Part shown: positions 23,599 through 48,689 of the stretch, piece after piece
Layout: every line of letters starts with the position of its first letter
Numbering within the stretch: the first letter of the stretch is position 1
Assembly (NCBI GenBank): GCA_028066245.1
Contig: JALCBR010000016.1
Coordinates: 1-48,689, forward strand
DNA length: 48,689 nt
Direction of reading: 5' to 3'
Source: Pirellulales bacterium
GTDB lineage: Bacteria > Planctomycetota > Planctomycetia > Pirellulales > S012-138
Translations under genes and position numbers: made by a program
The notes under the pieces: generated by a model
What the model saw: only the letters and a program-made list of their open reading frames with translations
Database searches by the model: none
What the model was told of the DNA's origin: nothing

Positions 23599-23825
23599 CA
23601 AGAGTCCCCGCGCTAAAACACCATTCGTCCGTTGTGAGATCTCGCAAACCCGACCCAACGTCTGATGGCAATCGTCGTGCGGAACTCGTAGAATCTTGGT
23701 CGTGTCCGGCGTGACGCGAGTGGCTGGGATAGCCTTGGTTATTTGGCGCTAACGATCTGCTCATCTTGGGCCCCTCTCGATCCAGGTCGCTACTCCTTGC
23801 TCAACGACAAAAGGAAGTGCAACAG

Positions 23826-24872
23826 ATGTCAACAAAAGCCACAAGTGCACTCATCACTTACAATCGTTCAGCCGCCCTTGCGTATGCGCGGGCCTACTGG
23901 ACGAAAGTTTGCACCGACGAATACGTCGCCGTCAAACAATCCCCGTACTTCAAGAAGGTCGATGCTGCAACCGTCTTCCTTCGCACAACTGCAAGCGACC
24001 CGAGTACAGAAGTGGCGAGACCGGGTACCGGCTCTGATATCCCGTTGGATGATCTTGAAGATTGTACACACTTCGTTTCTTGCTGTTTGGGAAGTCCTCC
24101 GGGTGGGACCGGCGGTGGTATCCCAATCACGCAAGACTTCAACACCATTTACGGCCGTCTTAGTGCCGACAGGTTGTACAACGACTTGGTGAGCCAGGGG
24201 CGCGTGGAACTTGTTGTAGAGAAAAAGACTTTTACTCAGGCAGCATCTTCGCTGAGTAGCCTGCAAGAAGGAGATCTGATCTTTTATTTCGACACGCCTC
24301 GCAACCGGTATGGACATTCGGCCATATACCTCGCAGGCGCTGGGAAACGAATTGCCTGCCACACCTATTGTCGAGGTGATGTCAACAACGACTATCCCCA
24401 GGCCTGGGACAGCGTCACCCTGCCGCTATGCACGCTCTTGAAGGTGAAGGCAAATCAGCCGAACGCCGAACCTGAATCCCTTCACAAACGGAGTGCATTG
24501 GGCTACGGCCAGCTCTCCAACAAGACTGGCGAGACACTGCTTGTTTATGGACCGAAGATTGATGGGACCTACGATAATTCCGTTTATCATCTCCCAAATG
24601 GACGCAAGACGGCTGACGACTGGGATTGCGACGGCTTCTTCGTCCCAAACGATCGCTACGCAGATCAGGCGACGAGCACAGATCAAGGCCCTCTGGCCAT
24701 CAAATACATTAACTTTCGCACGCCGGTCATCGAACGGTCAGGCGCGAATTACGAGTGCAGCCTAAACAACGGTGCCTACAAGGCCGGAGAGATCAACTGG
24801 GAGATCCCCAACATTGCGTATTCGGCTGTGCCAGGTTCATACCCAGTGGTACCTGGTCACGTTGCCGCATGA
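23826..24872 (+). CDS. Amidase_6-type putative amidase
   Basis: A 348-residue protein. The N-terminal half matches the Amidase_6 (NlpC/P60-related) pattern: RSAALAYARAYWTKVC, YFKKVDAAT, then DCTHFVSCCLG near residue 78-88 with the candidate catalytic Cys, a GDLIFYFDT segment, a candidate catalytic His in YGHSAIYL and a later CHTYC. The start at 23826 is preferred (AAGGAAG upstream); the longer frame has no support. The C-terminal half (GYGQLSNKTGETLLVYGPK; DDWDCDGFFVPND; CSLNNGAYKAGEINWEIP) is a second domain I do not recognise, perhaps binding. No signal peptide is visible. It opens the one-directional run of genes ending in the giants. A peptidoglycan or other amide-bond hydrolase is the likely activity. 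Confidence 0.7.
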   Translation: MSTKATSALITYNRSAALAYARAYWTKVCTDEYVAVKQSPYFKKVDAATVFLRTTASDPSTEVARPGTGSDIPLDDLEDCTHFVSCCLGSPPGGTGGGIPITQDFNTIYGRLSADRLYNDLVSQGRVELVVEKKTFTQAASSLSSLQEGDLIFYFDTPRNRYGHSAIYLAGAGKRIACHTYCRGDVNNDYPQAWDSVTLPLCTLLKVKANQPNAEPESLHKRSALGYGQLSNKTGETLLVYGPKIDGTYDNSVYHLPNGRKTADDWDCDGFFVPNDRYADQATSTDQGPLAIKYINFRTPVIERSGANYECSLNNGAYKAGEINWEIPNIAYSAVPGSYPVVPGHVAA

Positions 24873-24927
24873 ACTAATGGACTGCGCCGAGAAGCACTAC
24901 ATCTGTCTCTTAGCTGAAAGGGTTAGC

Positions 24928-26251: not shown

Positions 26252-26836
26252 ATGGCACTCATCGTAATCGACCCGGGACATGGCGGCAGTGACCCGGGCA
26301 AGGTTGGGCCCGCTGGCACGTTCGAAAAGACTTACGCTTTAGACGTGGGAAAACGTACGGCTGGTATTCTCAATCCAGATCACCGAGCGGAGATGACACG
26401 ACGCGATGATACCTTCGTTGAATTGGCAGATCGCCCAGCGACCGCGAAACGGTTGAAAGCAGATGTGTTTGTTTCGATCCACTTCAACAGTAATGGGCCT
26501 TCTGCCCAAGGCACGGAGACATACAAACATCCCGATAGCACGAGCGAGGACACGCGGTTGGCAGAGGCCGTGCAGGACCGCGTCGTGGCTGCGACAGGTC
26601 ACAACGATCGCGGTGTGAAGGAGGCCAACTTCGTTGTAATACGGCCCACTCTTCACTACGTGGACACACGTTCCTGTCTGGTTGAGGTGAGTTTCCTCTC
26701 GAATGCGGCGGAAGAGACGCGCCTTGGCGACCCTGACTACCGGCAAGAGATTGCACAGGCCATCGCCGACGGTGTCGAGGACTTTCTTGCTGAGGATCGG
26801 AAGGCAGGGCGGGCAGATCGCACAAGGAAGCCTTGA
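26252..26836 (+). CDS. N-acetylmuramoyl-L-alanine amidase (Amidase_3)
   Basis: A 194-residue zinc amidase that cleaves the bond between N-acetylmuramic acid and L-alanine in peptidoglycan. The catalytic set is complete: zinc ligands His10 (DPGHGG), Glu25 and His77 (SIHFNS), and catalytic Glu145 (LVEVSFLSN). A strong Shine-Dalgarno sequence (AAGGAG, spacing 6) defines ATG 26252. There is no signal peptide, so secretion must occur by another route or the enzyme acts as a released or cargo protein. The next frame starts with TTG overlapping its stop (TTGA). Together with the Amidase_6 protein it suggests a cell-wall role for the cluster. Confidence 0.9.
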   Translation: MALIVIDPGHGGSDPGKVGPAGTFEKTYALDVGKRTAGILNPDHRAEMTRRDDTFVELADRPATAKRLKADVFVSIHFNSNGPSAQGTETYKHPDSTSEDTRLAEAVQDRVVAATGHNDRGVKEANFVVIRPTLHYVDTRSCLVEVSFLSNAAEETRLGDPDYRQEIAQAIADGVEDFLAEDRKAGRADRTRKP

Positions 26837-27765
26837 TAGCCAATACTGGTTGTCAATCTACAGTCTACGCAAAGGAGAGAAATCTGAAAAGCAAGTGCAG
26901 CATCCTACTGTTGCAATTCGCAGTCGTTCTCCAATTGGACGCGGTCGGCAGCGGGCAACACACTCCGGACCGTAAGTACACCGCCGGGCAGAAGAGCATT
27001 TCCGGTCTCGTGGCCATCAAAGCCACAATCGAAACGCGTTATCGCAAACTGTGCGGAACAAGGTCGGTGGCTTCACAGTTCGGCCCGCCCTGCGTCCGTG
27101 CAACGGCGTCTGGACCGCTGATCCACGCTCCCGCGGCCAGCAGCGAAACTGAATGGCTGCCAATTGCCGAACCAGTGCAAATGAGGTCCGGCTTCGAAGT
27201 CAAGGAGATCAGCAATGTCCTGACCTATTCCTTCGCGCTTTGCCTACCGCCTGGGATCTTCGATCGGATTTCCCGGACGACCGTAACCCAGCTGCCGGAG
27301 TTCCTGGAGGAGATCGAAAGGCCGCTGTTCGAGCTGCCCGACGCCGCTTTGCCTCAGCTGCCCGAATTGCTCCCACTGCTGCTGGAGCGGATCATCGATC
27401 TGCGGCTGAGGATCAGCGCGGCCATCCGCCCCGCCCAGCCGGAATTTGATTTCGACTTTGACTTCTCGCTACCAGAGATTGGGCCGCCGACGCGTTTTCC
27501 CTGCTGCAAGGCCAAAGCTATAACGCTGCCTTTGGTAGGCAAGCTATCGAGTATCGAGTTTCATCTAGTGCGGTTGTTGACGGCGTGTCGCTGCTTGTCA
27601 ATCGAGTGTCTTCCCACGGGGTGGGCGGGGTGGGGGGGACGCTTCCGGGACGGCTATCATCCGGTGTTACCTCTCAGAACTGTGGCCAAGATGTGCGCAG
27701 CGTTATTGGCTCGGCGCACGGATCTCAACGACGAACACTCAGGAGACTTTTCGCGTGGCCAATAG
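26833..27765 (+). CDS. Degenerate-looking paralogue of a giant-protein module
   Basis: A 310-residue frame starting with TTG at 26833, which overlaps the amidase stop. A better ribosome-binding site (AAAGGAG) precedes an in-frame CTG at 26884, giving a signal-peptide-like start (LKSKCSILLLQFAVVLQLDA). Residues about 85-145 match giant gene 1 (nt 28717-28887): PCVRATASGPLIHA against PCVRVTIRGPMIHA, then EWL, EP and LTYSFALCLPPG against LTYNFDLCLPPP. The middle is Leu/Pro-rich and ends in FDFDFDF, like the giant's repeat region. The last ~100 residues (Cys/Arg/Trp-rich) have no coding character and the frame runs to a TAG 11 bp past the giant's GTG. I read it as a decaying module duplicate, perhaps still translated in part. 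Confidence 0.45.
   Translation: MIANTGCQSTVYAKERNLKSKCSILLLQFAVVLQLDAVGSGQHTPDRKYTAGQKSISGLVAIKATIETRYRKLCGTRSVASQFGPPCVRATASGPLIHAPAASSETEWLPIAEPVQMRSGFEVKEISNVLTYSFALCLPPGIFDRISRTTVTQLPEFLEEIERPLFELPDAALPQLPELLPLLLERIIDLRLRISAAIRPAQPEFDFDFDFSLPEIGPPTRFPCCKAKAITLPLVGKLSSIEFHLVRLLTACRCLSIECLPTGWAGWGGRFRDGYHPVLPLRTVAKMCAALLARRTDLNDEHSGDFSRGQ
27618..27638 (+). other. G-quadruplex motif upstream of giant gene 1
   Basis: Four guanine runs of 4, 3, 4 and 7 are separated by single bases (T, C, T) on the plus strand, ideal for a parallel quadruplex with one-base loops. It lies about 115 bp before the GTG start. It could influence transcription or the mRNA leader; a role is not shown. Confidence 0.6.
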
Positions 27766-30700
27766 TTTTTACGTCCAGCACACGAGAGACCAGCTGCCAA
27801 CTGAAACCGATTCCGAGCCGGACGAGGGGCAGATCTTCCCGCTGCTCCGCCGCTTCGGAACATCAGGAAACACGACGACTTGGGCGTATGCCGTCCCCAA
27901 GCGCCGAGAGTTAGGCGATCCGCCGGCATCGCGAAAGAACCTGTTGACTTGCGGCATCCTGCGGGCCATCGGCTTCGTGCCCGAGGGCAGCAACACCGCG
28001 CCCGTGGACAAGCCTTGGAATACGCGCACGGAACTGCTCGAGCGTTTCGATTTCTTCTATCTCAAAGACGAGATCCTGATCCCGAAATACGCCCCGAACG
28101 TCTTTGCTGGCGACACGCTGCCCGACATTCCCAACGACTCGGGACCGGGAGTCGAGGTGCTGAATCCAAAGGGAACGGCCGCCAGTCTTCTGCTGGCGGG
28201 TGATGAGTCGGCAGCCGGTCAGGACTCCACCTTCCTGGTCGACCAGTTCGAGATTCAGTCGTCGACATTCACACTTGGCCTGGCGGGGCAGGCGACGGCC
28301 CCTGAGTTCGACGCGACGGTGGCGCTCACCAGTTCGTCGCCGGTAAAGTGCCCTGCCGGCGCCGTGCCGACACTGTCGATTGAACAGCTTACGACGGGAT
28401 TCTTGCGCGTCAACGGCCAGAAAGCCGAGCCGAACAACGACAAGGCGACTCCGAGAATCGCGACCGATACTCGCCATGATCGACTGGCGCTTGACGTGGC
28501 CACACTTGTGTCTCTAGCCAGTGAGCTGGACCTGGACGCGACCGTAGAGCCGACTCGAATCAGCCTGGCAATTGAGGTGTTTCCCGCCTTCAGCTTCCGG
28601 CCCGATCCGAATCTGCCCATCTCGGTAGCGGTCGGCAATCGTGGGATCACCGCACGCCTGATGCCTTCTGATGGTGACTACCCGTTTCCAACGACAATCT
28701 CGGTGAATCGCCTTCAGCCGTGCGTGAGAGTGACGATCCGCGGCCCCATGATTCATGCAAAAGCAGAGGCGACAGGGCCATCCGAGTGGCTTTCGCTGCT
28801 GGAGCCCGCCAATCGGAAGCTTGGTGAAACAGTCGAGCAGATTAACGACCTGCTGACCTACAACTTCGACCTCTGCCTGCCTCCCCCCAAGATCCCTGCC
28901 CTTCCGCTTCCGGACCTGTTCAAACTGGAAGGGATGCGGGTCCGGGTCCCCAGCTTGAACGACTTCCCCCGGTTTCGACTGGGAGAGTTGCTGGACCGTT
29001 TCGTATTGCCGGCCGTCGACTTCGCACAATTCGAAATCTCCGGCCCCCAAGTCACGCTCAAGCTGCCGAGCTGGGTGACTCCGGACTGGGCGGCCATTCA
29101 CTTTCCGGCCCCAGCCGACGTCGACCTTTGGATGGAGCGACTTCGGATCAAGCGTCCTGGCGGGTTTCTGGAGTTTGGGGTCACCCCGCTGCCGGCGATC
29201 GATTCCGTCGTCCCCGACATCGGCGGGTTGGAGCTTACCCTCAATCTCACCGGCAACCTTCCGTCCCTCACTCTCGGCATCGACACTTTTGAACTCCGAG
29301 TTCCGGAACTGGAAGCGTTTGAATTCGAACTGCCGGATCTGGGTCTGCCGAGCTTGACGGACTTTGAGGCGCCTGATTTCTCGCTGGACCTCCCGAACAA
29401 GATCATTCGCTTCATGCTGCCGGAAGGCTTTCGCCTCGCGGACTTGCCAGCGCTCGACGTCCACTTGTGGACGATCCGGGTCCGGGGTCTCGATGGCCTC
29501 GCCATCAATCTCGACATCGATAAGCTAGAGCGAATCAACGATCTCGAGGTCAAGCTGACGCTGAAGGTCGTGCCTCCGGAATTGCCCAGTCTTTCGGGTC
29601 TGTTCAAGCTGGAGATCGCCTGGCGATTCGATTTCGATGCGCCGAATTTGAATTCGCCCGAATTGAAGCTGAAGACCAAGCTTCCGGAGGTGCTGCTGCC
29701 CAAGCTGGCAGCGCCGGACGCAAAATTCGGGGAGTTCGATTTTCGGCTGCTCAAGCTCCGGCTTCGCAAGCAGCTTCCGGATCTGCGGCTAGTAGACATT
29801 GGGACCTTCCCCCTGCTGGGGCTGTTGCCGTTCCAGACCCCTGACTTCCTGACCCTCAAGCTGGACATCCCCGAGGTCGACGGAGAGTATCCGGACCTCA
29901 AACTGTTTAAGGGCGGGCTAGGGCTTTCGGTCGAGATTTCACTGGACTTGAGTCTCTCCCTCGAAAAGTGCTATCTCACCGATTTGCTGGGCGAGTTGCC
30001 GTCCGTCGACTTCCGGATGTCACTGCCACCACTCAACGTTCCGACTCTGTCCATCGGCAAAATCAAATCGGAGTTCCACAGCCCCGAGCTGCCGGCACTG
30101 TTCGTGCCGTTTGCGCCCTTCGAACTAACCGTTCGCATTCCTCATCCGACGCTGCCCGAGCTCCAATGGAACGAGCTCCGATTGAATCTCGGCCTGCAGA
30201 TCGACCTGGACTCCTTCCGTCTGGCGGCGGGCCGAATCTACTTCTTTCTGCCTCAGCTCCGCAGCGGCGATCCGCTGGCCGACCGCGCACCGCGTCAGGT
30301 CATCGACTTCGACATTTTCACCATCACGTTTCCCACCCGTCCTGAGACGGACCGCTTTCCCACAGAGAAAAACCACGACGGATATCTCGATCTGCAGACG
30401 CGCGAGTTTGTCATCGACCTGGTGTATCCGAAGGAACCCGGTGCCCCGCCTGAAGACGAGGATCCGAAGGTCGCGATCAAACCGCGAATTCGCTGCTTCT
30501 TTCCAGGCGGCATGAATCCGAAGGCCGCTCGGCTGGGACGCGACGGTGTCGAGAACCTGAAAGGGACGGCGGACTACTCCGAGTTGCGAACCGAATATGC
30601 CAAGCGATTCGAACTGGAGCTGGACCTGGTCGAGCCGAGCCTGCTGGAGGACGCCCAGCGGCTGTTCTTCCGTCTGAACGGAAACGGACTCACGCTGGGC

Positions 30701-33700
30701 GCCAACCTGAGCAAGTCCGAGGTTGAAGTCGACAACTCGGGGTTCAACGACGACGGCGAAATGGCGGACGGCAAGGCCGGGCTGCTGAAGCCCTTCAAAT
30801 TCGATCCCCAGGAGAAGCAGGGCGAGCTGGAGAGCCGGCTGGTCGTCGTCGACAACGAACTGCGCGAGGCGGGAGTCTATGCCAAGACCGAAGTGCCCGG
30901 GGTCGACGACCTGATCGCGGAGGTCTCGGTCGTGCTGCGGCAGCCCGCCAAGGGCAAGCTGCCGGACGTGATCGCCTCGATGGAGCTCGAGCGTTCCGAC
31001 GAGGCCCCGCTGGCCGAGCTGTCCATCAAACTCTTGGAGCTGACTCTGGAACGGATCGAGATGGGGCTCACTTGGCGCGGAGAGGAGAAGGACTGGGACT
31101 ACTCGGTGATCGCTGACGGCACGCTGGCGTTCACCGGGGCCGCCGACCTGGTCGAAGATTTGGAGGATCTGCGGGCCCCGTCGATGCAGCTGATCGGACT
31201 TGATCTTCGCAGGCTCAATCTCCGTGAAATGCGAGTTCCGCTGGACCTTGTCGACCCCGTGCGGTTCGAAATTCTCGATGGCATGTTCGCAGTCGAACTC
31301 GGCGACCTCGAATTGGGCTGGGTGTTCGAGGGGCGAGTGCCCAAGCCGCGCCTGCTGGCGTGCGAATACGCGAAGATCGAGTACCTCAATCCCGGTGCGC
31401 TCGAAGTCGCAATCACCGTGGGCGGCCTGCACATTGAGTTCGACGAGGATCTCAAGGCGCACATCAAGCTGCCTTCATCGCTGGGATTCGAGATGGCGCT
31501 GGCCTCCACCGCCAAGTGCGCCGGCTCGGTCGGCTGGGTGGAAACGGAAGTCGAGAGGTACCTGTCTGTCACGGGCAAGATCCAGCTGCAGGGCCTTCCT
31601 GAGATCTCCGGACTGGTCAAGTTCGGCACGGGCGACAAAGACAGCGGCCGCCAGGAGATCAACCTGGTGCTCTACGGCGAGACCGAGCTCGACGAACAGC
31701 TGTATACGGGCGTGGTCGTCAAGTCTTTGGGGCTCGGAATCGGCCTCAACAACCGGCTCAAAGCCCTGCCTCCCAAACCTTCGGCCGACGCCATCATCGA
31801 GCGGATCGACACCGTCAAGCCGGGCGAGGTCGATCCCAAAGGCCAGCCGGTCGCCTGGGCATTCGTTCGCGAAGGCGGATTCTACGCGTCGATCATCGGG
31901 TCGACGATCATCGGTTCGAACCTCGGCGAATCGGACGTCCTGAATGCCTATCTGTGCCAGCTGGTGGTCAGTTTCGACAGCAACCTCGACTTGGTGGCGG
32001 CGGGAAAGTTGTGGTTGTCCTGCAGCCTCGATGGTCTCCGCGATCATCCCGACAATCCGGCCTTTGTGGGGGCCATGGTTTTGAGTCCGCGGCAGCAGAA
32101 ATTGGAGCTGGTGCTCCAGTCGCGACCGAACCCCTACATCGAAGAAAACGACCTGATGGAGAAGCTGCTGAGCAAGGTCCGCGTCCGGTTCGCCTTTCGC
32201 ATGACGCCGCAGCTGGTCGACTACCATCTCTCCGAGCTGTCCTACCGCGACCGCATGTTCGGCGCCGACGTGGCGATTATCGGCGAATACCGCTTTGCCG
32301 TTTTCAAGCGAGCCGTGCTGCTCAAGAGTGAGCTGTCGGCGACGGGCACGATCAAGGAGAATTTCTCGGCCGGGCCCGGCGGATTCGACATGGAGGGGCA
32401 GGCGCATCTGCACTACGGGTACGGCGGGCTGCTGACTACCAGCGGCGCGATGGCCTATGCGTTCATCGACGCCGGCCTGCGGTTCCGCGTTTCGGCCTGG
32501 ATCGAGATCGGATTCAGCATCTCGTTCAAGATCTGCGGAAAACGCAAGACAATCCGCTGGACGGTCGTGTTTCGGACTCGCATTCCCGAGCTCGAGCTGT
32601 CTTTCCGGGGCAACATTGGGCTCGCCGATCGCGACGGTCTGATCGGATTCGAGCTCCAGGTGGGAATCAACATTCCCATTTGCGGCTATCGCCTGCGAGC
32701 CAGCGGCCGCTGGGACGTCAACTCCGACCTGTACCATGACGTCCGCGCGCGTGTGGCCGCATTCGAGCGCGAGCTGGACGAGGCGGTGCGGAAGCTGAAT
32801 GCTGAAAATGCGGCGGCCAGGCAAGCCCAGCGCCGCTTCGAGGCGTTCCTGACGGATATGGGGCTGGCGACCCACCGGGACCGCTTCCTCGCTTTCGGAG
32901 ACCACGTCAGCGCGATTGAACGCGACCTGTTCGAAGCCCACCAGCAGTTTCTGAATCATCTCCGCTACGGGACGGATTTCCAGCAAGTCGAGGCCCCCAG
33001 CCAGTCGCTGAGGGCCGGCCTGAATGCCGTCAGCAGAATTAGCGCTCGAGGCGCCAGGGCCGCGCGAGCCCTGGTGCTGGAAAAGCACTTCCAGGAATGG
33101 GAGGCGGAACAGAAGGACTTCGCCCTTCGGTTCCGCAGGTCGCAGCCGCCAACGCCACTCGCCGTTTCACGCCGCCGAGATGCGTTCAGCAAGACGTTTC
33201 GGTCCGCGCAGGAGCCGCGGGAGCGGTGGCTGCTCTACCGACGCGAACAGGCCAGCGGCTCGCTCGTGTCCCTGCTGCACCCAGCGGAAGATTCCAAGTG
33301 GCTGACGCCGCGCATCCAGTCGGTGCGCAGCGTCACGGTGTTCCGCGTGGAAGATGTCAAGGTGCGGCGAGTCGTCATCGATGCGCCGGACCACTCGCTG
33401 AGCAACGGCAATCAAGTGCGGCTGTTAGGGATGCGCGGTCCCAACTTGCCGGGAGGCCTGGACGCCGCCTGGACCGTCACGTCCGCCGGCGCCGGCACCT
33501 TCGAAATCGACCTGTCCTCCGCCACCATTACCGCGCCCGCGATCCTCCAGAACTCCGGGTTCGAAGCCTGGCCGAATGGGCGACCGCAATCCTGGAATGT
33601 CGATTCAGGGACGATTGGCACTCACGTTGTCAAGGAAACGACGCTCACAGAATTGCACCAGGGACGCCACGCGTTGAAGCTGGTCGGCGACGGCAGCATC

Positions 33701-36700
33701 GAGTCGATTCGGATCAGCCAGAGCATCCCTCGAAATTCGTTCACGCCAGGTCAGCGTCACTGCGTATCCTGCTTCGTCAAGGGCGATGCGTCGATCACCC
33801 AGGGAAAGCTGACGATTCAATTTGAATCGGCCAGTGGCGAACCCGAGCGGGTTCCGAGCGGCAAGATTGAACTCGATCACACGACGCTGGCGACGCTCGC
33901 GGCCTACGAGGAACAGGAGTTTTGCTTCAGCGTTCCGACGAATGTTCCAGACGACCTCGAACTGGTGATCGAGGTGACGGAGACGTTGACCAGCGGCGCA
34001 GCCATTCGAATCGATGCGATCGCCGACACGTACGACGTGCCGATGTTCGGTGGAGTTTGGTATCCCGAAGTTGCCCCGAACCCGAATTTCAGAGGCCTCT
34101 CAGCCGAAGATCACGAGACCGTCTACTACTACGACGACGTCGAACGTGTCGCTCTGCGGACGGGCTCGTGGAAGACAGTGGCGAAGAACTTCGAGCCGCA
34201 GTCGGTGGGTTCCAATCAAGGCCTGCTCACGACCAGGGATGAACATGGATTTAAGGTGGGAACTCGCTTGATTGTGAAGAGCGACCAGCCAGCGGATGTA
34301 AAGGATTACGGGAGGTTCCGGCAATTCGGGAAGGAACTGGAGGGCAAGGACTATCCGCAACTGACCGCCGAAGTCCTGACAGTAGAGGACGCCCATCGCG
34401 TCAAGGTCTGGTTTCCGCCAGAACCGGACGACAAGAAGGACGATGCAGGTGATTTTCCGTCCTATCCGCTGGAGGATTGGCAAGTCGCCGCCGCGATCGA
34501 ACTGGCCCCGCACTGGAATGCGCGCAATCGGCTGGCCGAACTCGCCGTCCGCAAAGACCTGAACGACTACCGAACGGTCACGGGCGAGGCGGCTGGCTGG
34601 GCGGAGACAGCCGCTCGCGCCGGGCAAGCGAACGTCGACGCTCCGGACCATTCTGCCTTTGCCGTGGTGTTCGATGAGCGGTTTGAATCCGACGACCCGC
34701 GATTCTCCCCGCCGGAAGTTGCGGCCTCGCTGCCACCCGGCGTTCTATCGACTCGGTTCGAACGACTGGATGATGTGGAGATTGTCGGCGCGGATGAAGT
34801 GCTCGATTCGGCTCGCCGCTATCAGATCGCCAGCGCCGCGCTGGCTCGGCAAGAGCTGCACGACGCAGGCGACTTGAACACGGCCGAAGCGCTGCACCAG
34901 TCGCGAGCCCAGTTTTCCCAACAGCTGCTCCACAATCTCACCGATCCCCGTGGGGCCCAGGGAGACGATCGGACGCGTCTCGCGGACTTCACAACGGGCG
35001 TCGGATTCGGCTGGCTCTGGGACACCAGCATCACGCCGCCCGAAAGTACGAGTGACAACGACGTGCTGTTTGTCCGCCGGACAGGGGGATCCGCGACCGC
35101 CGCGAAGCTGGAGCAGCCCACCGGAGCGTCCGCGCAGCCGATCGACGTCAGCCTGCTGCCGATTCGCCAGGACTTCGCGGTCGACAAGGACTCGGAGCGC
35201 TCGCGGGAGGGACGGTTGGTTGTCCGGCTGCCCGTCCGGATTGACGACAACGCGTTGCGACGGCGCCTCTCAAAGGTCGGGTTGCTGCAGGTGTTCCGTC
35301 AAGTGGGCGAGCAACAGCCCGAGCCCCTGACAGCCGCGCCGTTCCGACCCGAGATCAGCTTCCTCAACTCGCCGCAGATCTACTCGCTCGAGGAACGCGC
35401 ATTTGTCGGCGATGAACACGAGGAATCGCGAGGGCCGCTGCATCCAATCTCCACGGCGGTCGTCGATGGAGACCAATTGGAAGCCTTTGAGGTGGCCGAG
35501 GACATCTGGCAGGCGCTGCCGGATCCGCCTGTGTCAAACGAACAGGATGTTTTGGAGGGCTTCGGCCTGCGAGTCTATTGGCAGCCGAATCCGCGGTCGG
35601 AGGAACATAAGTCGGAGTTGTTCCGCATTCGCGCGATCGAACGCCCAACGCGGACGAATGTCACCGTGACATTGGATCCGCCGATTGACTCCACCGTGCT
35701 TCCGGACGACACGTTGGTGTCCCTGGAACTCGTTGCCTACGGACTGATCGTACCTCGGCCGACCGCCATCTCTGATGAGTTCGAGGTTGCTGACGCCCAG
35801 TTCCTGGATCCGAAATTGGCCGCCGAGGCGGGGCCAGACGGACTCGTCCGAGTTCGCTACGGACTGCGGCTGGTAGATGAAGACGACGCCGGCAAGCCGT
35901 TCGACTTGGAGGCCGAACGGGCGACGGGCCGCTACCAGGAATGGGACCAGCCAGTGCCGCTGTTCATCCCACCCGAAAGCCCAACGCCGTTGCGGTTGGC
36001 GCTGGCGATGCCGGTGGACAGCCTGCTGCTGGATCCGAGCAATAAGGATGCCCCCGAGCCTCTGAAATTCCAACTGGTGAATCTGAGCGGCGAGACGCCA
36101 GCGCTCGCTGCCCAGGACGGCCGCCTCCTGGAGGCTGAGGACTTCGAGCTGTTCGTGGAGAAGTCGGAGTTGCAACAATCCGGATTCTACGCCGGAGAGG
36201 GCAGCGTAGCCGACGGGCCCCAGCAGCCTCGCGACAGCAGCCGCCTCACGCTGGACGACGTCGCCACCGCGTCCGAACTGCGATCGACCTTCGGTTTGCG
36301 GAAGATCGAGGTCAGACGTGTGGTACCCCGACGAGGTCCGATCTATTTCGAGACGGCTTCCGATGCGACCGGCTATTTCCAAGCCGGGTACGCCTACCGG
36401 CTGTTTGTTCGCGCTCGCGGCATGTCGGGCGTCGATCGGACATCCGAGATGCAGCTGCTGCTGGTTCGTGAGCTCCCGCTCCAATGGAGCGGCGACGTGC
36501 GGTTTCGTCAGTCGGAGCTTTTGGAGAGGATCCCTCAGGCCGATCTGGACGACTTGCTGAGCGAGAAAGCGGATCCCCTGACGCGAGACTTTTCAGCCGA
36601 CGAACTGTACGAGCATGGCCGCAACTCCATCCGTGCGGTCTGGCCATCGAGTACCGTCCAGGACGGCGGCGTGGAACTCCAGCTGAGAGACTTCGACGAC

Positions 36701-39700
36701 TCGTCCGTCCGAGGGCGAGTGCTGTGCGAAGTGGTTGAGGCGGGCGAATTCCAGAAGACACCGGGGGATTTTCGGGACGAGTCCCTTTGGGCGCCGCGGT
36801 CGCAGCAGCAATTCGAGCGGTTTGCGAGCCCAGTGCGGGCCTTGGCAACCAAGATTACGGGCTCGGAATTCAAGCCATTCTACATTCTGCTCACAGAGGG
36901 CGAGTCGCTACCTGCCGTCGTCCAAGCGATCAAGAACGAGGCGACCAAGTTGGTTGCCGCCGCCCAGGAGAGGGAAAGGTCCTGGGAAAAGATTGCGAAC
37001 GCTGCCGCTAATCTTCAAACGACCCTGCTGCAGTTCGAAAAATCGCCGCTCAATTTCGAAACCCCGGCCGCGAGGGCGTTGCTCGACATTGCCCGGATGT
37101 GCCTGCGGTCACTGCTGGTTGGAAACTTGCTCCCTGTCCGCGGCGCCGACGTGCCGCCGGGCACTTCCGCCGCCGAGCTTCGAAAACAGCTGGAGGCGAT
37201 TCGAACCGCCGATGCAGGGCTGGTCAACCTGGTGCGGGACATCGAACAGGCAAAGCCGGAAACGATTGGCCAGACAGCGAACGATGAAACTGCCTTTCTG
37301 GATCGGGACACGGCGACGCGGCTGGCGGGAATCGTGCGGCGTCGCTTGGCGCTGGCCAGCGACACCGTCGGACTCCGAGGGACTGCCTCGTCGCCTAGCA
37401 ATCAACAAGCCGCCCGATTGAGCCTGATCGCCGACACCGACGCTCCTCTCCCGCTCGTTCGACAGGAGGCCTGGTTGAGCCAGCTTCAAGACAGCAAGTC
37501 GATGAGCGCGTCCCTGCCCTTGACCGACAAGCTGGCGGCGTTGTTTGGAGCTGTTGCATGGGAAAACACCCGAGAGTTGAATGCGGCCGCGCTGCATGCA
37601 TTGCAGGGCGAACTCAACGACCAGCTCGACAAGAACCTCCCCAAAACAGTCTCTCAGGCGGCCGGTCTGACGGACTTCCTGAACCGACTCCAGGCGCGTC
37701 TGGACGGCGGCGTCGCCGATTCGCCGGCTGCCGTGCTCAAACGTCCCCATCATCAACTGACGACTACCAAACGAGAGGACGGCGAGATTGTGGCGCGCCC
37801 CCTGCCGTTGCGATCAATGCTGCCGGCGGACGCACGAGGCACGCAGCCCGGCACGGTGCCGCCGTTGCCGGACAATCGAACCTCGCGACTTGCAGCGCGT
37901 GTGGGCAGGCTCGCCATCTTGACCGCAGACGGCGACGTGACCATCTGGACTGCGCGAGGCAACGCGCTTGGCGAGCCGGCCGAACGGATGCAATTCTTTT
38001 CCGCCGCCAACCGCGGTCACGAAGACTTCGGCAGCGCTCGCATCCAGCTGTCCGAGGATCTGGATGGCCCGTTGGTCCTGATCGACGCTCGTGCCCGTCA
38101 GGGACAGGCTGAGCGAGCGGTCGATCTCTGGAACGCGGCGACGGGCACGTTCCTCCGGCAACTCAACGAGGGCGCAGCCGCCCCCGGCGCCAAGTTCGCC
38201 GATACGCCGCGAGGCCTGGAGGTGCTGCTCGTCGAAGCGGCGACTTCCGGTTCGCAGCCGCAGCCGCACGCTGTCGTTGCCCGTCCGGTCGATGCCTCGC
38301 GGGCCCCGACCCGGTTTCTCTCGTTCAATGACAACCAGGATGCGGACACCTATCCGGGGATCGTCGCGTACCATGACGAACTGAAGATGGTCGCCGCCAG
38401 GGCGACGCGTGAGATCAGCAGCGTGATGACACCCGTGCTCGTGCTGTGGCGCGATCTGGGCAGGCCGGAACACAGAACTCCCGCGCATGTCATTGCATTG
38501 TCGCTGGTTGCCCAATTGCAGGACATTCAACCGGTGACCCTCCCGACCGGGGCGAGGTTTGTGCTGGCAACTTCAGACACGATTCATCTGCTAGACCCGA
38601 TTAGCGGCGAGGTAGTCCTCAGCGAAGGGGCTGGAGCCGCAGTGAGTGGGATCGCTGTCGATCGCCGGGGCCTGACGGTCGCCGTACGGATGGCTGCGGG
38701 GGAGCTGCGAGTATTCGATCTTGCCGCTTCGACGTGGCGTGATGATCCGCAGCACAATGCACTGAGGACCAGTCGGGGTGTCGCACTGCTTCACAGCAAC
38801 GACGAGTCCTATGCGGCTGTCGCCGATGGGCCCGAGACTCGGTGCTTTGAGATACCCGTCGAGGGCCGCCCGCAGTCCGTGCAGACGCTGCCTCATGGCG
38901 TGCCGCTGTACTCGGCACCGACAGCGACGAGCGTGGTTTCCATCGCCACGGACCTTCAGGCGGCGCGTACTGCCAAGTCCGCCGCCGAGCTCGTCAACCT
39001 GTTTCATCTCTGGGAGCGGATGGGCTTTGCGCTGGACATCGCCGCCCAGGACTCGGCCGCCCGGCTGCTGCCACTGGCCGCGTTGCGAGGCGAAATCGAC
39101 CGTGTGCTCTACGACATGCGAAACGGCAGCGACCACGGATCGATCCCCGTCAACCGCAATGAACCCCATTACGCGTTCCTTGTCGAAGGTGAGGAACATG
39201 ACGCTCAGTTCAAGGACAGTGACACGGTCGGGTTCGCCCATGCCAAGGTTGCCATCGTGCCGGCGAAGTTCCTCGCCGCCGCGCACGACCTCCGCATCAA
39301 TGTCGTCGACTGCGGGTTTGACAAGAGCAGGCGACTGCTGGATGTCAGCCTCGAGGCGTGCCCACGGACCAGGGGGAACGCCCGCCATCTGGAAGTGGTC
39401 GTGCTCGCGCCCGCCATCGCCAATCCGGTTTGTGAGGTGGTGCTTCCCACCTGGCCCGACAAGTTGCAGCTCCCCGAAACACAGGCGGCAGAGCTGGGCG
39501 ATGCCACGCAGGTGCGAGTTGCGTTGGTGGCCAGAAACAGCACGACAGAGAAGTCGTGGGAGCCGCTCAGAGCCTGGCTGACTTATCGTTCGATCGTGCC
39601 AACGGAAACCGACAACCCAGCCGACGACGGCATCAACCCCGAGTCACTGGTCGAACTGCTGCATGTCGCGCAGCTGACGCGGTTGGCGGGCGTGCCCACG

Positions 39701-41785: not shown

Positions 41786-41844
41786 GCCCGTCCCTCGCCC
41801 CGACACCATCGCAGCATGCAACTCGAATGAACTAGGATCCCACC

Positions 41845-44800
41845 ATGAGCACTGTGAATGCATCGAAGCGAAGCGCCTTGTCCCGGCCTTCGAAATATCG
41901 GCGTCGTTTTCAACAATACGTCGTTCTGCAACTTCAGCTCCCTCGTGATGCGCCCTTCGGCAGCGAGAGCTTCTTCTGCCAGCTGCTGATTCACAACCGT
42001 GTGTGGGAGGAAGAAGACGGGCTGTTCGAACAGCTCAATAGGAATGCCTCCCATATCACCATCGCGGTCTTCAACAACGCTCAACGCCTACACCCGATTC
42101 CTCACGCTCACCCCGACTTGGCAGTTGTCGAGGCGGTCAACTGGTCAGGACATCTTGACGTTCTGGATGGCGGCACCAACCACGTTCGGGTAGCGTTGAA
42201 TGCCCGACTGCATGTTGAGCACGTGGAGCGCGACCCAGCGCAGGGCGGGAAGATCTGGCTGGTGCGAGCCACGCTTCTTTCCGGCGGCATCAGTTTTCTC
42301 CGGGCCAGCAACGACCTGTCGGGCCCGGACATCACTGATACGATTTGGCCCGGCGGCGGCGGAGAACAGCTACAGGGCATTTTCGTGAGCGGGTCCGACT
42401 TGCAAATTGAAGTCAGGAGAAGAGTCAGCTCCTCGGGCTTTCCGCAATTTCTCGTGCGACGATTTCGGCTGCTCGGAGTCAAACGGGACGAAGAGGGCGT
42501 CGTCAGCGAGGCGATTTGGGAGCACACGCGGGCCCGCAAGGTCTTAAGCTACTTCTTCCCGCGTCGTATCGCGGAGATTGAACAGCCGGATCAGCGTGTC
42601 GCCGGACAACTGGGAAAGTTCCGCGCGCGGTGCCGTAGACTCGACCCGCCGATCGAAGTCGCGTTGGGCGACGTGCTCAAGAGCCTTCCCGCCGGATCCT
42701 TGGCGGATGAATTGGATCGGGAAAGGGTCCCTCAGGAGATTAAGGATGCGCTCGGTGTAAGCGGGGACGGCGAGGTCGCGATTCTTGAGCGGGGTCACGA
42801 ATGGCAGCTCGATATTCAAGACAGGCAGTTCATCATTCAGCTGGTCAGCAAGGAGAACAGTCGCGGGGTCAATGCCGCTTGGCTGGACATCTACGAAGCG
42901 CCCACGGGTGATTCGACACGCACGATCGCACGGGTCAGCATCAACGAGGAAGAGGCTCTCGAGCGTGAGGAGTTTCTGAAGACGGACCTCTCGCTGCGGA
43001 TTCGCACGGACTCATCTCCGGAGGCGCCGCGAGTTGCCTGGCGGCCGCAGACGTTGTTTGTGGTGGAAACATCGTCGGAAGACTACTCGTTCACACTTGT
43101 TGACACGGATGTGGCGGAACAACTGCTGCGAAGCGGCGTCACGACCGACACTTCAGCGCGGGCGGAAGTTTCGTTCCAATGGTCGACGAAGGCGAGCGAA
43201 CGGACACAGCGCCTTCCAGAAACCGAACTGGCAGGGACGTCCGTTGCGCCGAATGCGGCAGCCCAGGACCTGTGGTTCCAAGCCCGCTGCGCACCTGGGA
43301 ACAAGAGCCCCTATCCGCAGGCGCCCGCTGCCTTGGTGCACATCTCGGCCGCCGAACCGAACGGCACGCCAACCCGCGACGACGCGGCGGCCGCGCGACT
43401 GAGCGGTCCGCTGTTGTTCCAAACCGGCGATGCAGACACAAACAGTCGATGGCGATGCCAGGTCGTGCCGGCAGGGAGCATTTCGCGGGCCGTCACGACT
43501 TCCAGCAACCGGCCCCGGGTCCAGTTGGAACTCGAGGGCAGGCTTGCCGAGTTGACCGCAGAGCTCAAGTTTCACGCGCCCGATGTGACGGTCGATTCAC
43601 CAACCGTCGCATTCTACGACGTGCCGTTAAATGACCCTCAGTCGGCTCCTAACGAACGGCGCCTCCACAGCCCCCTCGTCAACCAAGACGGGTCACTTCG
43701 CTTCAACTGCCGGGCGGGCGACCCGCCCCGTCCAGGCACGGTGCGCTGCGTGTATGACCCAGGCCAACAGACGTTTGAGGTCAGCCGCCGGCCGGCCGGT
43801 CTCTCCCCCACGGCTGTTGCCGCTCCCCAAGCGGCCACGGTGCTGCTCCCTGCGACGCGGGCCTTGGTCGACCCAGTATCGGTGACCCGCGGCAATCTCG
43901 TGGCGCTTCAGACAGTGGCGTTTCCAGTCTATCGATTCCCCAGCCCTGGAGATGCGAACCGGCTGCGCGTCAGGGTCAAGGAGATTCGCCAGGTTTCGTC
44001 AGAGCCGCCCAAGGCGCAGTTGGATCTTGAATTCCTTGACACCGATGCCAATACCATCTTTGCGCGAGCCGATTTGCCCACCGACGGCGCCCTCAAGGGG
44101 TTTTTCGCCGAGTTCGTCGGGGAAGGGGAGGAGGCCGGGCCGGCGGTCGTGCTGCGAGTGCTGTTCGTCCATCAGGGGCTGCCCTCGGACACGATCTTGA
44201 CGATCGATGTCAAGCACGTCCCCGGCTTGGACCGACTGCGAACCGACGACTTCGAGTATCGGTTGTCGGTGGGTCCAACCCGCTTGGCGCTGCCCCGGGA
44301 TGTCAATCATGGCTTGATTCCACTCGGTATCGGCAAGTTCCGGTTCGCCCCAACCGCGACGAACGGCCCCTTCCCGGAGCTGGCATTCGTTGAGAAGGAT
44401 GTGCAAGGCGCCGAGAGCCAATCCGCGTTTGCCCTCCATCTCTGGAGCGAGCGGGGCCCGGACCCGCGATTCAAGGACGACAGCGACAATCCACAGGCCG
44501 CGTGGCTGGAAACAGGACGCGTGCGTCTGCATCACCGCAATCTCGTCCAGGAGCACGCGGAATTCGAATCGTCGTTCGAAGACCGGTTTCCACCCGAAGG
44601 ACCTCAGGTGGACCCGGAGACCGGCAACACGCCCAGCCCGCTGCTGCCGTTGCAGGACTTTCTGCGCTCTGTCCGCGACCGCTACACCGAGGCCAGCGGC
44701 AACTTGCTACAGAAAGGCACGAACGAAGAGCAAAAGAACGCGCGGCAACTCCGCAATTGGCTGCCCAAAGCGGAGCTGGAGGACGCGGGCGGAAACGACG

Positions 44801-47800
44801 CTCGCCCGGTACTCCAATACGCCGACAATCCGGCCACCGTCCCCGAAGTCGAATTGCCGGCTGGCCCGTTCGACGAGCAGAACCTGAAGTTGCGCAAGTC
44901 AACCGACGACGACTTGGATAGACATTGGCTGGACGTCGATCTGCGGCCGGAGGTAATTGATGTCGGCAAGCGTCCTGAAGTGCGGATCGAAACGACGGAT
45001 CCCCTCCAAACGGCCACACGCCGAGCTCTCGATTCGTCGACTCCGCTGCTGTTCGAGGAGCACGAGGTCACGGCGCTGGCCACCGCGAACCTGCCCGGCC
45101 TCGACGATCGGACACTCGTCGTCGTGGGTGGAGCGGGTGAGGTCGGGGCCGTGTATCGATACACGGCGGACGGCGAATTGGACGCCTCCGCCGACTTCAG
45201 TGGCGTCACCGTTTTGCCGCTGGTCGATGCCGCGCTGACAGAGAACGGACGCCAGGTTCTGGGCGTCGTGGTCGCCTCTGATGGAAAGGCATGGCGCTTC
45301 GTGATAAAGGCCGACCTGACGTTCGAGTCGATCGACGAGATCAACCGAGCCAGCCATACCGCGCAGGCGGTGGCGGCCACGCCGCCCGGCGCAGATCCGG
45401 CGTTTGCGATTCTCTGGCAACCAGAATCCGGAGACGACAAGCCCGTCGACGTCTACCAAAGCAGCGACTGGGAAACGCCCATCCAAGCGCTGGTCAGCTC
45501 AAAGACAACCGCGATCGCCATGGACTGGACGACGAAGGGGAACGCCTTGTTGGCGATCGGCTTCAGCACGGGCGGCGGTGAGTTGCGCGACGCTTCCAAT
45601 TGGGAGACAAGTGTCAGAACGCTCAACCCATTGAGCGGGAAGCACGACCTGCGTTCGATCGCGGTGGTGGCGGGAACTTATCAAAGAGTGGCGACCACCG
45701 GAGTCTTTGCCTGCAACATCAAGGGCCAGGCCTGCCATTGGTTCCTGACCGGCGGAAACGCGGCGGACGCGACCGAATGGCACTTGCCGGGCGACGTATT
45801 GAGCGTCTCCACAGGCAACGTGCGAAATCTGGAATCTCGCCGGGAGGCGGAAGGAGCGGCCGCCGCCGACCTGGTCGCCGCCGGGTTGCGGAGCGGCGTC
45901 ACGCGGGTTGCTGCGATCCGAGCGGCCAAGAGGCTAGCTCACGTACGATCTTTTGATGCGGCATCCGCTCCTGTTGCCCTCAACACGCTTCCTCGTCTGT
46001 CTCCACTGGACCGAGTGCCCCGAAGGGTGTTTCGCGGGATGCACAATCCCACGTCCGTCCCGAACGCGACGGCCAAGTTCGATTGGTGGATCGCCTCTGA
46101 TTCCGGAAACGTCGCCGGCGTCCCGGTGGCGAAAGGAGGCTTGATCGTCGGCCTCGACACGGGAGACCTAAGCGACGCCACAAAAGTGATGGTGGCGCCG
46201 GCTCCATTCGGCGCGTTCCGAGGTGCACACGACGCCAGCAGCAACACGAACCCGTCAGGCTCCCAGTCCGCGGGAGACTGGTGGGTGATCTCCGCCGGGG
46301 GCCAGCTGTACTCCAACAGCCTCGACGTGCTGGCAGGCGACCTCCTCGTTGTGTTGACGCATCCTCCCACCGACCAGAGCCACGTGGCGGTGGCGCGGCG
46401 TCATCAAGCCTCGTCGCCGATCGCAACGGGCGCCTCGTCCGGAAAGACCCAACTCGCCGACTTGCGGATTGGAACGGAATGGGTCAGCCCGCCCACGCGG
46501 GATTCGTCCACCTACGCCGACGCACTTTCCGTGATTCGGCAGGCCGGCGCCGCGGCGGTCAATGGCGCACCGGGCTTGAAGGTCTTTCGTCCGATCGCTG
46601 GCAACGACATCGTCAGTGGTTTGGAAGTCTCTGCAGTGAAGGCCGCTGGCGACGGGGCGACTCCATCTGTCGACCTGACATTAAAGTTCGTCGACAGCGG
46701 AGGCACGGAGGTGGCGGCGGCCGCTACGTCGGATGCCAACGGGAAATGGTCCGCTGCCGGGATCGATTTGAGTTCGCTCGGCAATGGAATGGTGACACTG
46801 ACGGTCACGGAAGACGCGATTCCTGCCAACAAGGCGTGGGCACGGTTCGCCCTCAACAAGGGATTTTCGGCACAGCCTCCCAAGCTGGAGCAGGTGCCTG
46901 GCGCCCACGCCCCGGACACCGTCCCGCGCCAGACGTTTGTCAACCCCGCCGCCCAGCGGCCCCGGCCGGGCGACATCGTCGTCATCCACTCCGATACGCA
47001 GGGGGAAGTCGGCAAGGGCAAAGTCCAGAGGGACGGACCAGATGAACAAAAGGGCAGCTTCGTCATTACCACCAAGCCACTTGACCCGGTCACTCACAAG
47101 CTCACCTATACGCTCGAAGATCCCGCCGGGAACGTGAGTGTCGCTTCCGAGGAGCTTGTGATTACCATCGCTGCAGCGTCACCCAACAATCTGGTCATCG
47201 ACTTGCCCGTCCGAGTTGGGGAGGTCGATCATCCGGACAATGTACTCAACGCCGGCCACACGTCGTCTGACGGCAGGCGAACGGTGACCCTTTCCGGCTC
47301 CGGAATGAACGGCCAGGTCGTCGAAGTCACCTTTACCCACCACGGAAACGGTGTGTCCGTGCCCACCGTCCAGGACACCGTCGTTGACGAGCGTTGGGAA
47401 GTCTCGACAGACATCGAGCCACTGGGCGATGGCCGCATCACTGCCGCCGTCGTGATGGGTGCACAGACTGCAGAGGCCGTGCTCATCGTGGACAGCCAGC
47501 CGCCCGTGGCCAAGCTCCCTGTCCAGCTTGATCCGACGACGAACTACGACGGCGGAGCTGTTTCGCTGCTGAACCGTTTTGGCGGGGGAGCGGCCACCTT
47601 CAGCCTGCCTCCGGAGGCCGGCGGACGAGGCGACACCATCAACTTGTACGTCGATGATCAGCAGCAAGACCCAGTCCCGGTCCAGGGCGATGGGAGCGCC
47701 TATCTGACTATCGACTTGGATGCGGGTGACCATCGCGTCACCTACCAATTTGTCGATACGGCAGGCAACCAAAGTAAGTTGTCACCGGCATGCCACATCG

Positions 47801-48689
47801 CGGGCTTGATCGTGGACGAGCTTTCGCCGACGCGTGACGAAGAAGCGGAGCAGCCTCGTTATTTTTCGATCTCAACAGGCGGGCTCAAGATCGTCAGTGA
47901 CGAGCCGGTCGCCGATGAGCTCGACAAGGCCAACCTGACCGACATCCGAATCTGGGCCGACTCGTTCAAGGTTCACCGTGAGTTCAAGGACAGCGAGGAC
48001 AACCTGATTCACGTGGAGGGCGCGATCGACGATTTGCAGTTCGCCGACGATGTCTTCGACCCCGGACGGATGTTGTTCTTTTCGGCAGTTCGCGCGGATC
48101 AGCAGCGACAACTGCCGCCGCATGAGCTGGCGCCTCTCGACTACCTGCCACGGCTGGGTGGCGTGCCGATCTATGTCACCAAAGTGACCAAGTGCCAATT
48201 GGACTACGACCCGGATTCCAAGTCGGCCGCCATTCGCGAGCTGGTCTTTACGGCGGTCCCGGTCAATCCGGATGAAGTGGCAGCCGGCGTCGATCCGGCG
48301 GATCTGACGACCACCGCCGGATTGGTGCGTCGCGCGGCAAGCCGCAACAGTTCTTTGAATGTCCGAGTCCGGCCTGGTGACGTCGCGCCCGTGACCGTCG
48401 ACGGGAAGGTTGACTGGCTGTTTTCGGTCAATCGCCAGATTGCGGCGCCGGACCCCCAGCCTGCCATCGGCGGGCAACTGGCGAGGCTGGTCAGCAGCAG
48501 CGTCTCATACGACAACGCCAAGAACATCCTCAGTTTTGTCGTAGACCTTGACGCATCCCGAGCCCTCGTGATGGGGCGGCTGTGGAAGCTCGAGGATCCG
48601 GGCGCCCCGTTGGTCGTGCGGGGGCATGGATCGTTTGTTCGTGCCGCGACAAGCGGCGATCCCAGTCCGTCGGCGGCGGATTCCGTAGC
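41845..48689 (+). CDS. Giant multidomain protein 2 (partial, at least 2281 residues)
   Basis: I read this frame codon by codon from ATG 41845 to the window end and found no stop, so at least 2281 residues are encoded and the 3' end is missing. A TAG in the same frame four codons upstream fixes the start; AGGAT precedes it. It follows giant 1 by 59 bp. No signal peptide is seen (MSTVNASKRSALSRPSKYRR). About residues 1073-1352 look like a beta propeller (GEVGAVYRYTADGELDA). Two tail-fibre-like modules lie near 1412-1452 (DWWIASDSGNVAGVPV) and 1471-1519 (GDWWVISAGGQLYSNSLDV). Four Ig-like repeats follow (SDANGKWSAAGIDLSSLGNG; YTLEDPAGNVSVAS; TVTLSGSGMNGQVVEV; VTYQFVDTAGNQSK). A surface protein or fibre role is inferred. 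Confidence 0.85.
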   Translation, partial: MSTVNASKRSALSRPSKYRRRFQQYVVLQLQLPRDAPFGSESFFCQLLIHNRVWEEEDGLFEQLNRNASHITIAVFNNAQRLHPIPHAHPDLAVVEAVNWSGHLDVLDGGTNHVRVALNARLHVEHVERDPAQGGKIWLVRATLLSGGISFLRASNDLSGPDITDTIWPGGGGEQLQGIFVSGSDLQIEVRRRVSSSGFPQFLVRRFRLLGVKRDEEGVVSEAIWEHTRARKVLSYFFPRRIAEIEQPDQRVAGQLGKFRARCRRLDPPIEVALGDVLKSLPAGSLADELDRERVPQEIKDALGVSGDGEVAILERGHEWQLDIQDRQFIIQLVSKENSRGVNAAWLDIYEAPTGDSTRTIARVSINEEEALEREEFLKTDLSLRIRTDSSPEAPRVAWRPQTLFVVETSSEDYSFTLVDTDVAEQLLRSGVTTDTSARAEVSFQWSTKASERTQRLPETELAGTSVAPNAAAQDLWFQARCAPGNKSPYPQAPAALVHISAAEPNGTPTRDDAAAARLSGPLLFQTGDADTNSRWRCQVVPAGSISRAVTTSSNRPRVQLELEGRLAELTAELKFHAPDVTVDSPTVAFYDVPLNDPQSAPNERRLHSPLVNQDGSLRFNCRAGDPPRPGTVRCVYDPGQQTFEVSRRPAGLSPTAVAAPQAATVLLPATRALVDPVSVTRGNLVALQTVAFPVYRFPSPGDANRLRVRVKEIRQVSSEPPKAQLDLEFLDTDANTIFARADLPTDGALKGFFAEFVGEGEEAGPAVVLRVLFVHQGLPSDTILTIDVKHVPGLDRLRTDDFEYRLSVGPTRLALPRDVNHGLIPLGIGKFRFAPTATNGPFPELAFVEKDVQGAESQSAFALHLWSERGPDPRFKDDSDNPQAAWLETGRVRLHHRNLVQEHAEFESSFEDRFPPEGPQVDPETGNTPSPLLPLQDFLRSVRDRYTEASGNLLQKGTNEEQKNARQLRNWLPKAELEDAGGNDARPVLQYADNPATVPEVELPAGPFDEQNLKLRKSTDDDLDRHWLDVDLRPEVIDVGKRPEVRIETTDPLQTATRRALDSSTPLLFEEHEVTALATANLPGLDDRTLVVVGGAGEVGAVYRYTADGELDASADFSGVTVLPLVDAALTENGRQVLGVVVASDGKAWRFVIKADLTFESIDEINRASHTAQAVAATPPGADPAFAILWQPESGDDKPVDVYQSSDWETPIQALVSSKTTAIAMDWTTKGNALLAIGFSTGGGELRDASNWETSVRTLNPLSGKHDLRSIAVVAGTYQRVATTGVFACNIKGQACHWFLTGGNAADATEWHLPGDVLSVSTGNVRNLESRREAEGAAAADLVAAGLRSGVTRVAAIRAAKRLAHVRSFDAASAPVALNTLPRLSPLDRVPRRVFRGMHNPTSVPNATAKFDWWIASDSGNVAGVPVAKGGLIVGLDTGDLSDATKVMVAPAPFGAFRGAHDASSNTNPSGSQSAGDWWVISAGGQLYSNSLDVLAGDLLVVLTHPPTDQSHVAVARRHQASSPIATGASSGKTQLADLRIGTEWVSPPTRDSSTYADALSVIRQAGAAAVNGAPGLKVFRPIAGNDIVSGLEVSAVKAAGDGATPSVDLTLKFVDSGGTEVAAAATSDANGKWSAAGIDLSSLGNGMVTLTVTEDAIPANKAWARFALNKGFSAQPPKLEQVPGAHAPDTVPRQTFVNPAAQRPRPGDIVVIHSDTQGEVGKGKVQRDGPDEQKGSFVITTKPLDPVTHKLTYTLEDPAGNVSVASEELVITIAAASPNNLVIDLPVRVGEVDHPDNVLNAGHTSSDGRRTVTLSGSGMNGQVVEVTFTHHGNGVSVPTVQDTVVDERWEVSTDIEPLGDGRITAAVVMGAQTAEAVLIVDSQPPVAKLPVQLDPTTNYDGGAVSLLNRFGGGAATFSLPPEAGGRGDTINLYVDDQQQDPVPVQGDGSAYLTIDLDAGDHRVTYQFVDTAGNQSKLSPACHIAGLIVDELSPTRDEEAEQPRYFSISTGGLKIVSDEPVADELDKANLTDIRIWADSFKVHREFKDSEDNLIHVEGAIDDLQFADDVFDPGRMLFFSAVRADQQRQLPPHELAPLDYLPRLGGVPIYVTKVTKCQLDYDPDSKSAAIRELVFTAVPVNPDEVAAGVDPADLTTTAGLVRRAASRNSSLNVRVRPGDVAPVTVDGKVDWLFSVNRQIAAPDPQPAIGGQLARLVSSSVSYDNAKNILSFVVDLDASRALVMGRLWKLEDPGAPLVVRGHGSFVRAATSGDPSPSAADSV

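Follow-up and report, generated by a model that had tools for sequence, protein, structure and literature searches.

A rare pair of adjacent giant genes, mostly accompanied by peptidoglycan- or papain-type enzymes, in planctomycetes, a cyanobacterium and proteobacterial plasmids

Wall effectors of the T6SS type and phage lysins typically belong to changing families, namely Sec-less amidases, M23 enzymes, L,D-transpeptidases and papain-type proteins, and are encoded beside a delivery locus. The missing signal peptide is unusual in housekeeping wall enzymes and usual in lysins and injected effectors. Giant genes, for their part, are often counted in papers on planctomycete genomes (e.g. PMC5177795). 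The window analysed here is a complete contig (48.7 kb) from a planctomycete genome of 4.94 Mb, and in it two adjacent giant genes lie downstream of two wall-type enzymes. The features concerned are as follows.

23766..24872, forward strand: wall enzyme of the Amidase_6 / NlpC-P60 type (Pfam, 1e-6), no signal peptide, likely inner start at ~23826
26252..26836, forward strand: Amidase_3 N-acetylmuramoyl-L-alanine amidase (Pfam, 6.4e-49), no signal peptide
26833..27765, forward strand: ORF with a 61-aa stretch (27085-27264) 48% identical to giant 1 residues ~321-381 (1.5e-11)
27755..41785, forward strand: giant 1 (G1), 4676 aa, GTG start, no Pfam, PHROG or NCBIfam match, homologue in Leptolyngbya
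30752..32914, forward strand: conserved core of G1, residues 1000-1720, the sole part recognisable across all 14 loci
33317..33979, forward strand: G1 residues 1855-2075, faintly indicated FCCH-like small barrel motif, then a probable carbohydrate-binding jelly-roll
41845..48687, forward strand: giant 2 (G2), at least 2281 aa, open at the contig end, Leptolyngbya homologue of 4692 aa
44254..45087, forward strand: best-conserved segment of G2, residues 804-1081, 44% identity to Leptolyngbya G2
46027..46404, forward strand: two copies of a ...DWW(V/I)xS..G module in G2, residues about 1395-1520, no phage or PDB match
46630..47799, forward strand: bacterial Ig-like repeats in G2, residues about 1596-1985 (Pfam Big_13)

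The initial annotation had proposed two adjacent giant ORFs, and these are indeed present, with 4676 and at least 2281 aa and a gap of 59 bp between them. Both read uninterrupted in the window sequence, and both can be taken as real genes because Leptolyngbya keeps the two of them. Giant 1 runs parallel to its homologue in Leptolyngbya sp. SIOISBB from residue 4 to residue 4526, with gaps between blocks of 38%, 55%, 31%, 33% and 36% identity, and its start at 27755 agrees with that of the homologue, residue 4 of the one being aligned to residue 4 of the other. It consists of a conserved beta-rich core with variable ends and returned zero matches in Pfam, PHROGs or NCBIfam, even at E values up to 10. 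An AlphaFold model of the core from two sequences reached a pLDDT of 31 with no usable fold, and the PDB held nothing convincing for the G1 core, the DWW module or Leptolyngbya giant 2. The jelly-roll suggested earlier is plausible and weakly supported, since the segment has a poor AlphaFold score (57) and its Foldseek matches, to a binary-toxin B-component domain and to CBM16, have low TM-scores of 0.25-0.44; on these models it may plausibly be read only as a 'beta-sandwich, CBM-like' segment. A simple hydropathy scan detected no signal-peptide-like hydrophobic run at the N-terminus of either giant, in agreement with the absence of Sec signals stated before.

Giant 2 aligns with Leptolyngbya G2 in four blocks of 28-44% identity. 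Given the 4692 aa of the latter, the window copy may run well past the contig end; a search of the genome with the known part found no second piece elsewhere. The Ig-like repeats claimed for the giants are real in giant 2 (Pfam Big_13, 1.6e-9) and fall outside the blocks alignable with Leptolyngbya. Other modules of the initial annotation fared less evenly. Propeller similarity is present but weak, consisting of faint DUF5122 (0.096) and tandem-repeat matches in the window copy and a weak THOC3 propeller match (0.033) in the Leptolyngbya copy. The repeated DWW module does occur in two copies, at residues 1413 and 1478, but matches no phage record. Similarly, tail-fibre-like modules are found in Leptolyngbya G2 as Pfam matches to E1_FCCH (five copies), DUF2793 and End_beta_barrel, a set that includes modules bearing phage-protein names in Pfam, but the window proteins themselves have no phage match.

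Relatives of the pair were difficult to reach with single queries. Window giant 1 found no relative except itself in 199 genomes of the phylum, window giant 2 found nothing beyond itself and two weak matches in 118 relatives, and the window proteins recovered only themselves from the contigs of the species. The first foothold was a 24.5%-identity stretch of a protein on the Neorhizobium plasmid NZ_CP147998.1 (1e-11), and a two-sequence alignment of the window with this faint match was the only query that opened up the family, retrieving Leptolyngbya at 3e-160. With the Neorhizobium protein as query, ten further plasmids were found, carried by Rhizobium (R. anhuiense, R. ruizarguesonis, R. leguminosarum and R. 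brockwellii), Sinorhizobium chiapasense, S. terangae, Mesorhizobium, Bradyrhizobium, Cupriavidus and Undibacterium. One more planctomycete, designated G866 (1.6e-36), emerged when 392 planctomycetes were searched with a G1-core profile built from 12 sequences. The 14 loci considered here are the window, Leptolyngbya, G866 and the 11 plasmids. The pair is rare and patchy, being present in 2 of 392 planctomycetes, with the window's genome counted, and convincingly in 1 of 386 cyanobacteria (Leptolyngbya). The remaining cyanobacterial profile matches were weak (E 1e-3 to 1e-5), spanned only ~75-110 of the 714 profile positions within short frames, and were discounted as probably due to chance. 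All annotated copies of the giants are labelled "hypothetical protein", and the literature searched for giant proteins associated with wall hydrolases or with injection systems had nothing on this pair. In the libraries searched the pair is undescribed, and no described system fits it.

The proposal that the two giants form a conserved unit is borne out, as a homologous G1 core with a neighbouring second giant occurs at 14 loci in three phyla. Wherever the reading frame permits, the second giant (2191-4692 aa) lies directly 3' of G1; it is in two pieces in Undibacterium and R. ruizarguesonis. The spacing of the two genes ranges from -29 to +59 bp and is mostly a few bases; in Leptolyngbya, G866 and R. 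brockwellii the genes overlap by 4 bp. Such spacing suggests translational coupling. Leptolyngbya G2 starts 4 bp within the end of giant 1, and giant 1 itself is divided there between two ORFs of 931 and 3614 aa, which lie 17 bp apart and differ in frame, indicating either a frameshift in this copy or an error in its sequence. The giants of the Neorhizobium plasmid are broken into several frames, either by decay or by long-read sequencing errors, and the second of them could be located solely by its resemblance to two further G2s from rhizobia. Among the proteobacteria, each giant is related from locus to locus to a varying extent (about 22-98% identity). Across the three groups (planctomycete/cyanobacterium, proteobacteria and G866) the G1 core alone is recognisable; the second giants share position, size and linkage across these groups, and a test for homology gave detectable matches within groups only.

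The modules described above bring to mind surface or extracellular adhesion or matrix proteins, whose wall enzymes would merely aid passage through the producer's own wall. The Ig-like, probable jelly-roll and propeller-like modules are in keeping with such a role. Conservation resides in the G1 core and not in modules suited to adhesion, the core is accompanied in every case by a closely linked second giant, and neither a Sec signal nor an anchor was found, which makes adhesion a distinctly unlikely explanation.

In the window's genome the giant pair is compositionally foreign, with a GC content of 62.8% in each giant vs about 56% in the flanks and a third-position GC of 0.74-0.76 vs 0.61-0.69 in four flanking genes. 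A transposase-like gene, read from the sequence, lies upstream at 22568-23539, and the 61-aa stretch that immediately precedes giant 1 is the probable remnant of a decayed partial G1 duplicate. Among the carrier plasmids, eight of 11 were typed conjugative and three non-mobilizable. The pair spreads horizontally, being found in a planctomycete, a cyanobacterium and plasmids of soil proteobacteria. The conjugative plasmids raise the possibility of a DNA-transfer helper, that is, a wall-opening, cell-binding surface apparatus of conjugative elements, and the Leptolyngbya pair comes after an array of transfer/partition-like genes, as judged from ORF N-termini only. Nevertheless, three carriers are non-mobilizable, the G866 pair sits within a single-contig 7.3-Mb genome and the giants of most plasmids do not adjoin transfer genes; we regard this explanation as very improbable.

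The initial annotation had further held that wall-acting proteins belong with the giants. As a class they do recur, since 12 of the 14 loci have an enzyme or domain of the peptidoglycan or papain type next to or within the pair, nine of them backed by Pfam matches, but the exact Amidase_3 partner is specific to the window. The partners come from several unrelated families, listed below for the other loci.

Leptolyngbya: HH_signal (hedgehog-domain) protein (5e-15), 32 bp downstream of G2
G866: PG_binding_1 (8.8e-9), fused N-terminally to giant 1
Neorhizobium: M23 (6e-6)
R. leguminosarum: M23 (2e-19)
R. ruizarguesonis: YkuD (2.6e-4)
Bradyrhizobium: YkuD (2e-8)
S. chiapasense and Undibacterium: Peptidase_C70
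R. anhuiense: C70-type gene, the same as in S. chiapasense and Undibacterium
R. brockwellii: membrane protein with an NlpC/CHAP-like end, judged by eye
Cupriavidus: Amidase_6-like gene, weakly similar (E 0.006) to the Amidase_6-type enzyme of the window

The hedgehog domain is related to bacterial peptidoglycan M15A metallopeptidases (PMC8052667, PMC6027127). Mesorhizobium and S. terangae have no wall enzyme close by, an M12 metallopeptidase being located farther away in S. terangae, and Peptidase_C70 may be an ordinary protease and not a wall enzyme. Wall-type genes make up 10 of 52 neighbours, for which a rough binomial estimate at an assumed base rate of 2% gives 8e-8, with the loci being non-independent. 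The stand-alone wall-type enzymes have no signal-peptide-like N-terminus in a simple scan, which did recover the signal peptide of a secreted control protein encoded at the R. leguminosarum locus. Of the pointers to what the pair does, the strongest is that a single function keeps reappearing while the enzyme family changes.

Two further neighbours were observed. A WD40-propeller gene (24772-26130) lies between the two wall enzymes of the window; its co-occurrence with the giants, suggested as a check, was not borne out, as no equivalent was seen at the other loci. On two Rhizobium plasmids (L036:12467-13420, reverse strand; L033:8685-9638, forward strand) giant 2 and the wall enzyme are separated by a gene for a protein of 317 aa that has a clear signal peptide, an Ig-like domain and membrane segments, and that could be an immunity or anchor protein.

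What is observed at these loci is a conserved and tightly linked pair in a mobility context, a recurrent wall-type enzyme of changing family without an obvious Sec signal, and no contractile sheath. We tentatively favour the explanation that G1 and G2 make up, as its two subunits, a so far undescribed apparatus that moves horizontally and works on bacterial envelopes by means of an exchangeable wall enzyme. G1 and its linked G2 would probably be co-produced and assemble into one large structure, in which variable surface-binding modules of the Ig-like, sugar-binding and FCCH/DUF2793 types could recognise the target, presumably another bacterium. The small, exchangeable, Sec-less enzyme (amidase, M23, L,D-transpeptidase, hedgehog/M15-type or papain-type) would be carried by this assembly as cargo or tip activity and would open or remodel peptidoglycan, much as tail lysins and injected wall effectors do, and the apparatus might leave its producer by lysis or some other route. 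Against this explanation stand the lack of a known export route, sheath, tube or ATPase linked to the giants, the failure to detect G2 homology between the three groups, and the loci of Mesorhizobium and S. terangae without a nearby wall enzyme, together with the possibly ordinary protease C70.

Defence-type genes are common among the neighbours of the pair, and with several loci beside such genes an intracellular defence role would fit too. The giants would then be a cytosolic sensor or scaffold against phages or plasmids, and the Sec-less wall enzyme an abortive effector or one acting during phage-induced lysis. By annotation, ThiF/multiubiquitin/WYL/UvrD and Avs1c genes lie near the Undibacterium pair, AbiEi/AbiEii adjoin that of S. 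chiapasense and AbiEii/DUF6088 that of R. brockwellii; AAA and HNH genes are near the S. terangae pair, and a lookalike of a BREX-like operon, read from sequence only, is directly upstream of the G866 pair (G866:C1:6842734-6858954). The missing Sec signals of the giants also agree with a cytosolic role. The G866 run comprises ATPases, a helicase, an HNH gene and a DUF262-like gene. Plasmid accessory regions are generally rich in defence genes, however, so that these neighbours may be hitch-hiking; they vary from locus to locus, and sugar-binding, Ig-like, tail-type and peptidoglycan-binding modules would be odd in a cytosolic sensor. On balance we consider a defence function unlikely.

That the window holds no ordinary injection system, as had been noted initially, can be extended to the whole of its genome, which has no sheath gene anywhere. 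Phage_sheath_1 gave matches in 0 of 11 searched (the window's genome, G866 and nine plasmids), excluding a contractile injection system as far as the sheath gene tells, and the three matches in Leptolyngbya are more than 1.7 Mb from the pair. Tube, baseplate and AAA ATPase genes were found neither among the main ORFs of the window (Pfam) nor among the annotated neighbours of the other loci. A viral origin, as a phage tail fibre or prophage remnant, was likewise rejected: the giants have no PHROG relatives, tblastn of G1, the DWW module and the R. brockwellii core against 50,697 phage records gave no match, and viral contigs contained no relatives of the giants.

A faint similarity, resting on sequence profiles, may point toward another family of unknown function, DUF6603 (PF20248). 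PF20248 searched against 12 G1 cores gave a best value of 0.0004 in one core, none in the window core and 0.011 on whole proteins; hhalign and hmmsearch placed a short local match of the G1 core to one cyanobacterial member around a GxGYR motif, with an hhalign probability of 6%. The literature searched held no mention of DUF6603. The cyanobacterial DUF6603 protein (1526 aa) is encoded in a cluster of large uncharacterised ORFs (G344:C92, about 63100-80100) of 1275, 872 (LamG-like), 1048 and 622 aa, possibly another undescribed multi-gene system.

The pair encodes roughly 5,500-9,000 residues without name, fold or function and, rare as it is, is common to planctomycetes, a cyanobacterium and symbiotic rhizobia. 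Beside wall-cutting-type enzymes, it may represent a new kind of envelope-acting machine; if delivery of wall enzymes is true, this would be an antibacterial or transfer machine without a phage sheath. Its carriers include culturable, manipulable strains (R. leguminosarum, Sinorhizobium, Bradyrhizobium), which renders the proposal directly testable.

Overall, the two-giant loci resemble several described systems in part. With the giant genes of planctomycetes they share size, which there is a mere size class, whereas here a specific homologous two-gene unit extends across phyla. DUF6603 is likewise a beta-rich domain, of ~500 aa, within large proteins, but 11 of 12 G1 cores have no match to it and the G344 gene lies in another kind of multi-gene cluster, in which no second giant is present. 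Extracellular contractile injection systems (eCIS) and phage tails have in common with the loci the tail-type modules (in Leptolyngbya G2), linked wall enzymes and Sec-less proteins, but the window's genome, G866 and the nine plasmids searched are without a sheath gene and the giants without a PHROG match. As with T6SS-type effectors and lysins, small Sec-less wall enzymes of varying family adjoin the giants, but the partners linked to them are two giants and not Hcp, VgrG or PAAR. The corresponding class, hitherto unrecognised and put forward here as a doubtful possibility, would be non-contractile: a mobile, two-protein apparatus that pierces or binds envelopes, made of two giant beta-rich proteins with swappable Sec-less peptidoglycan enzymes and borne on plasmids across phyla.
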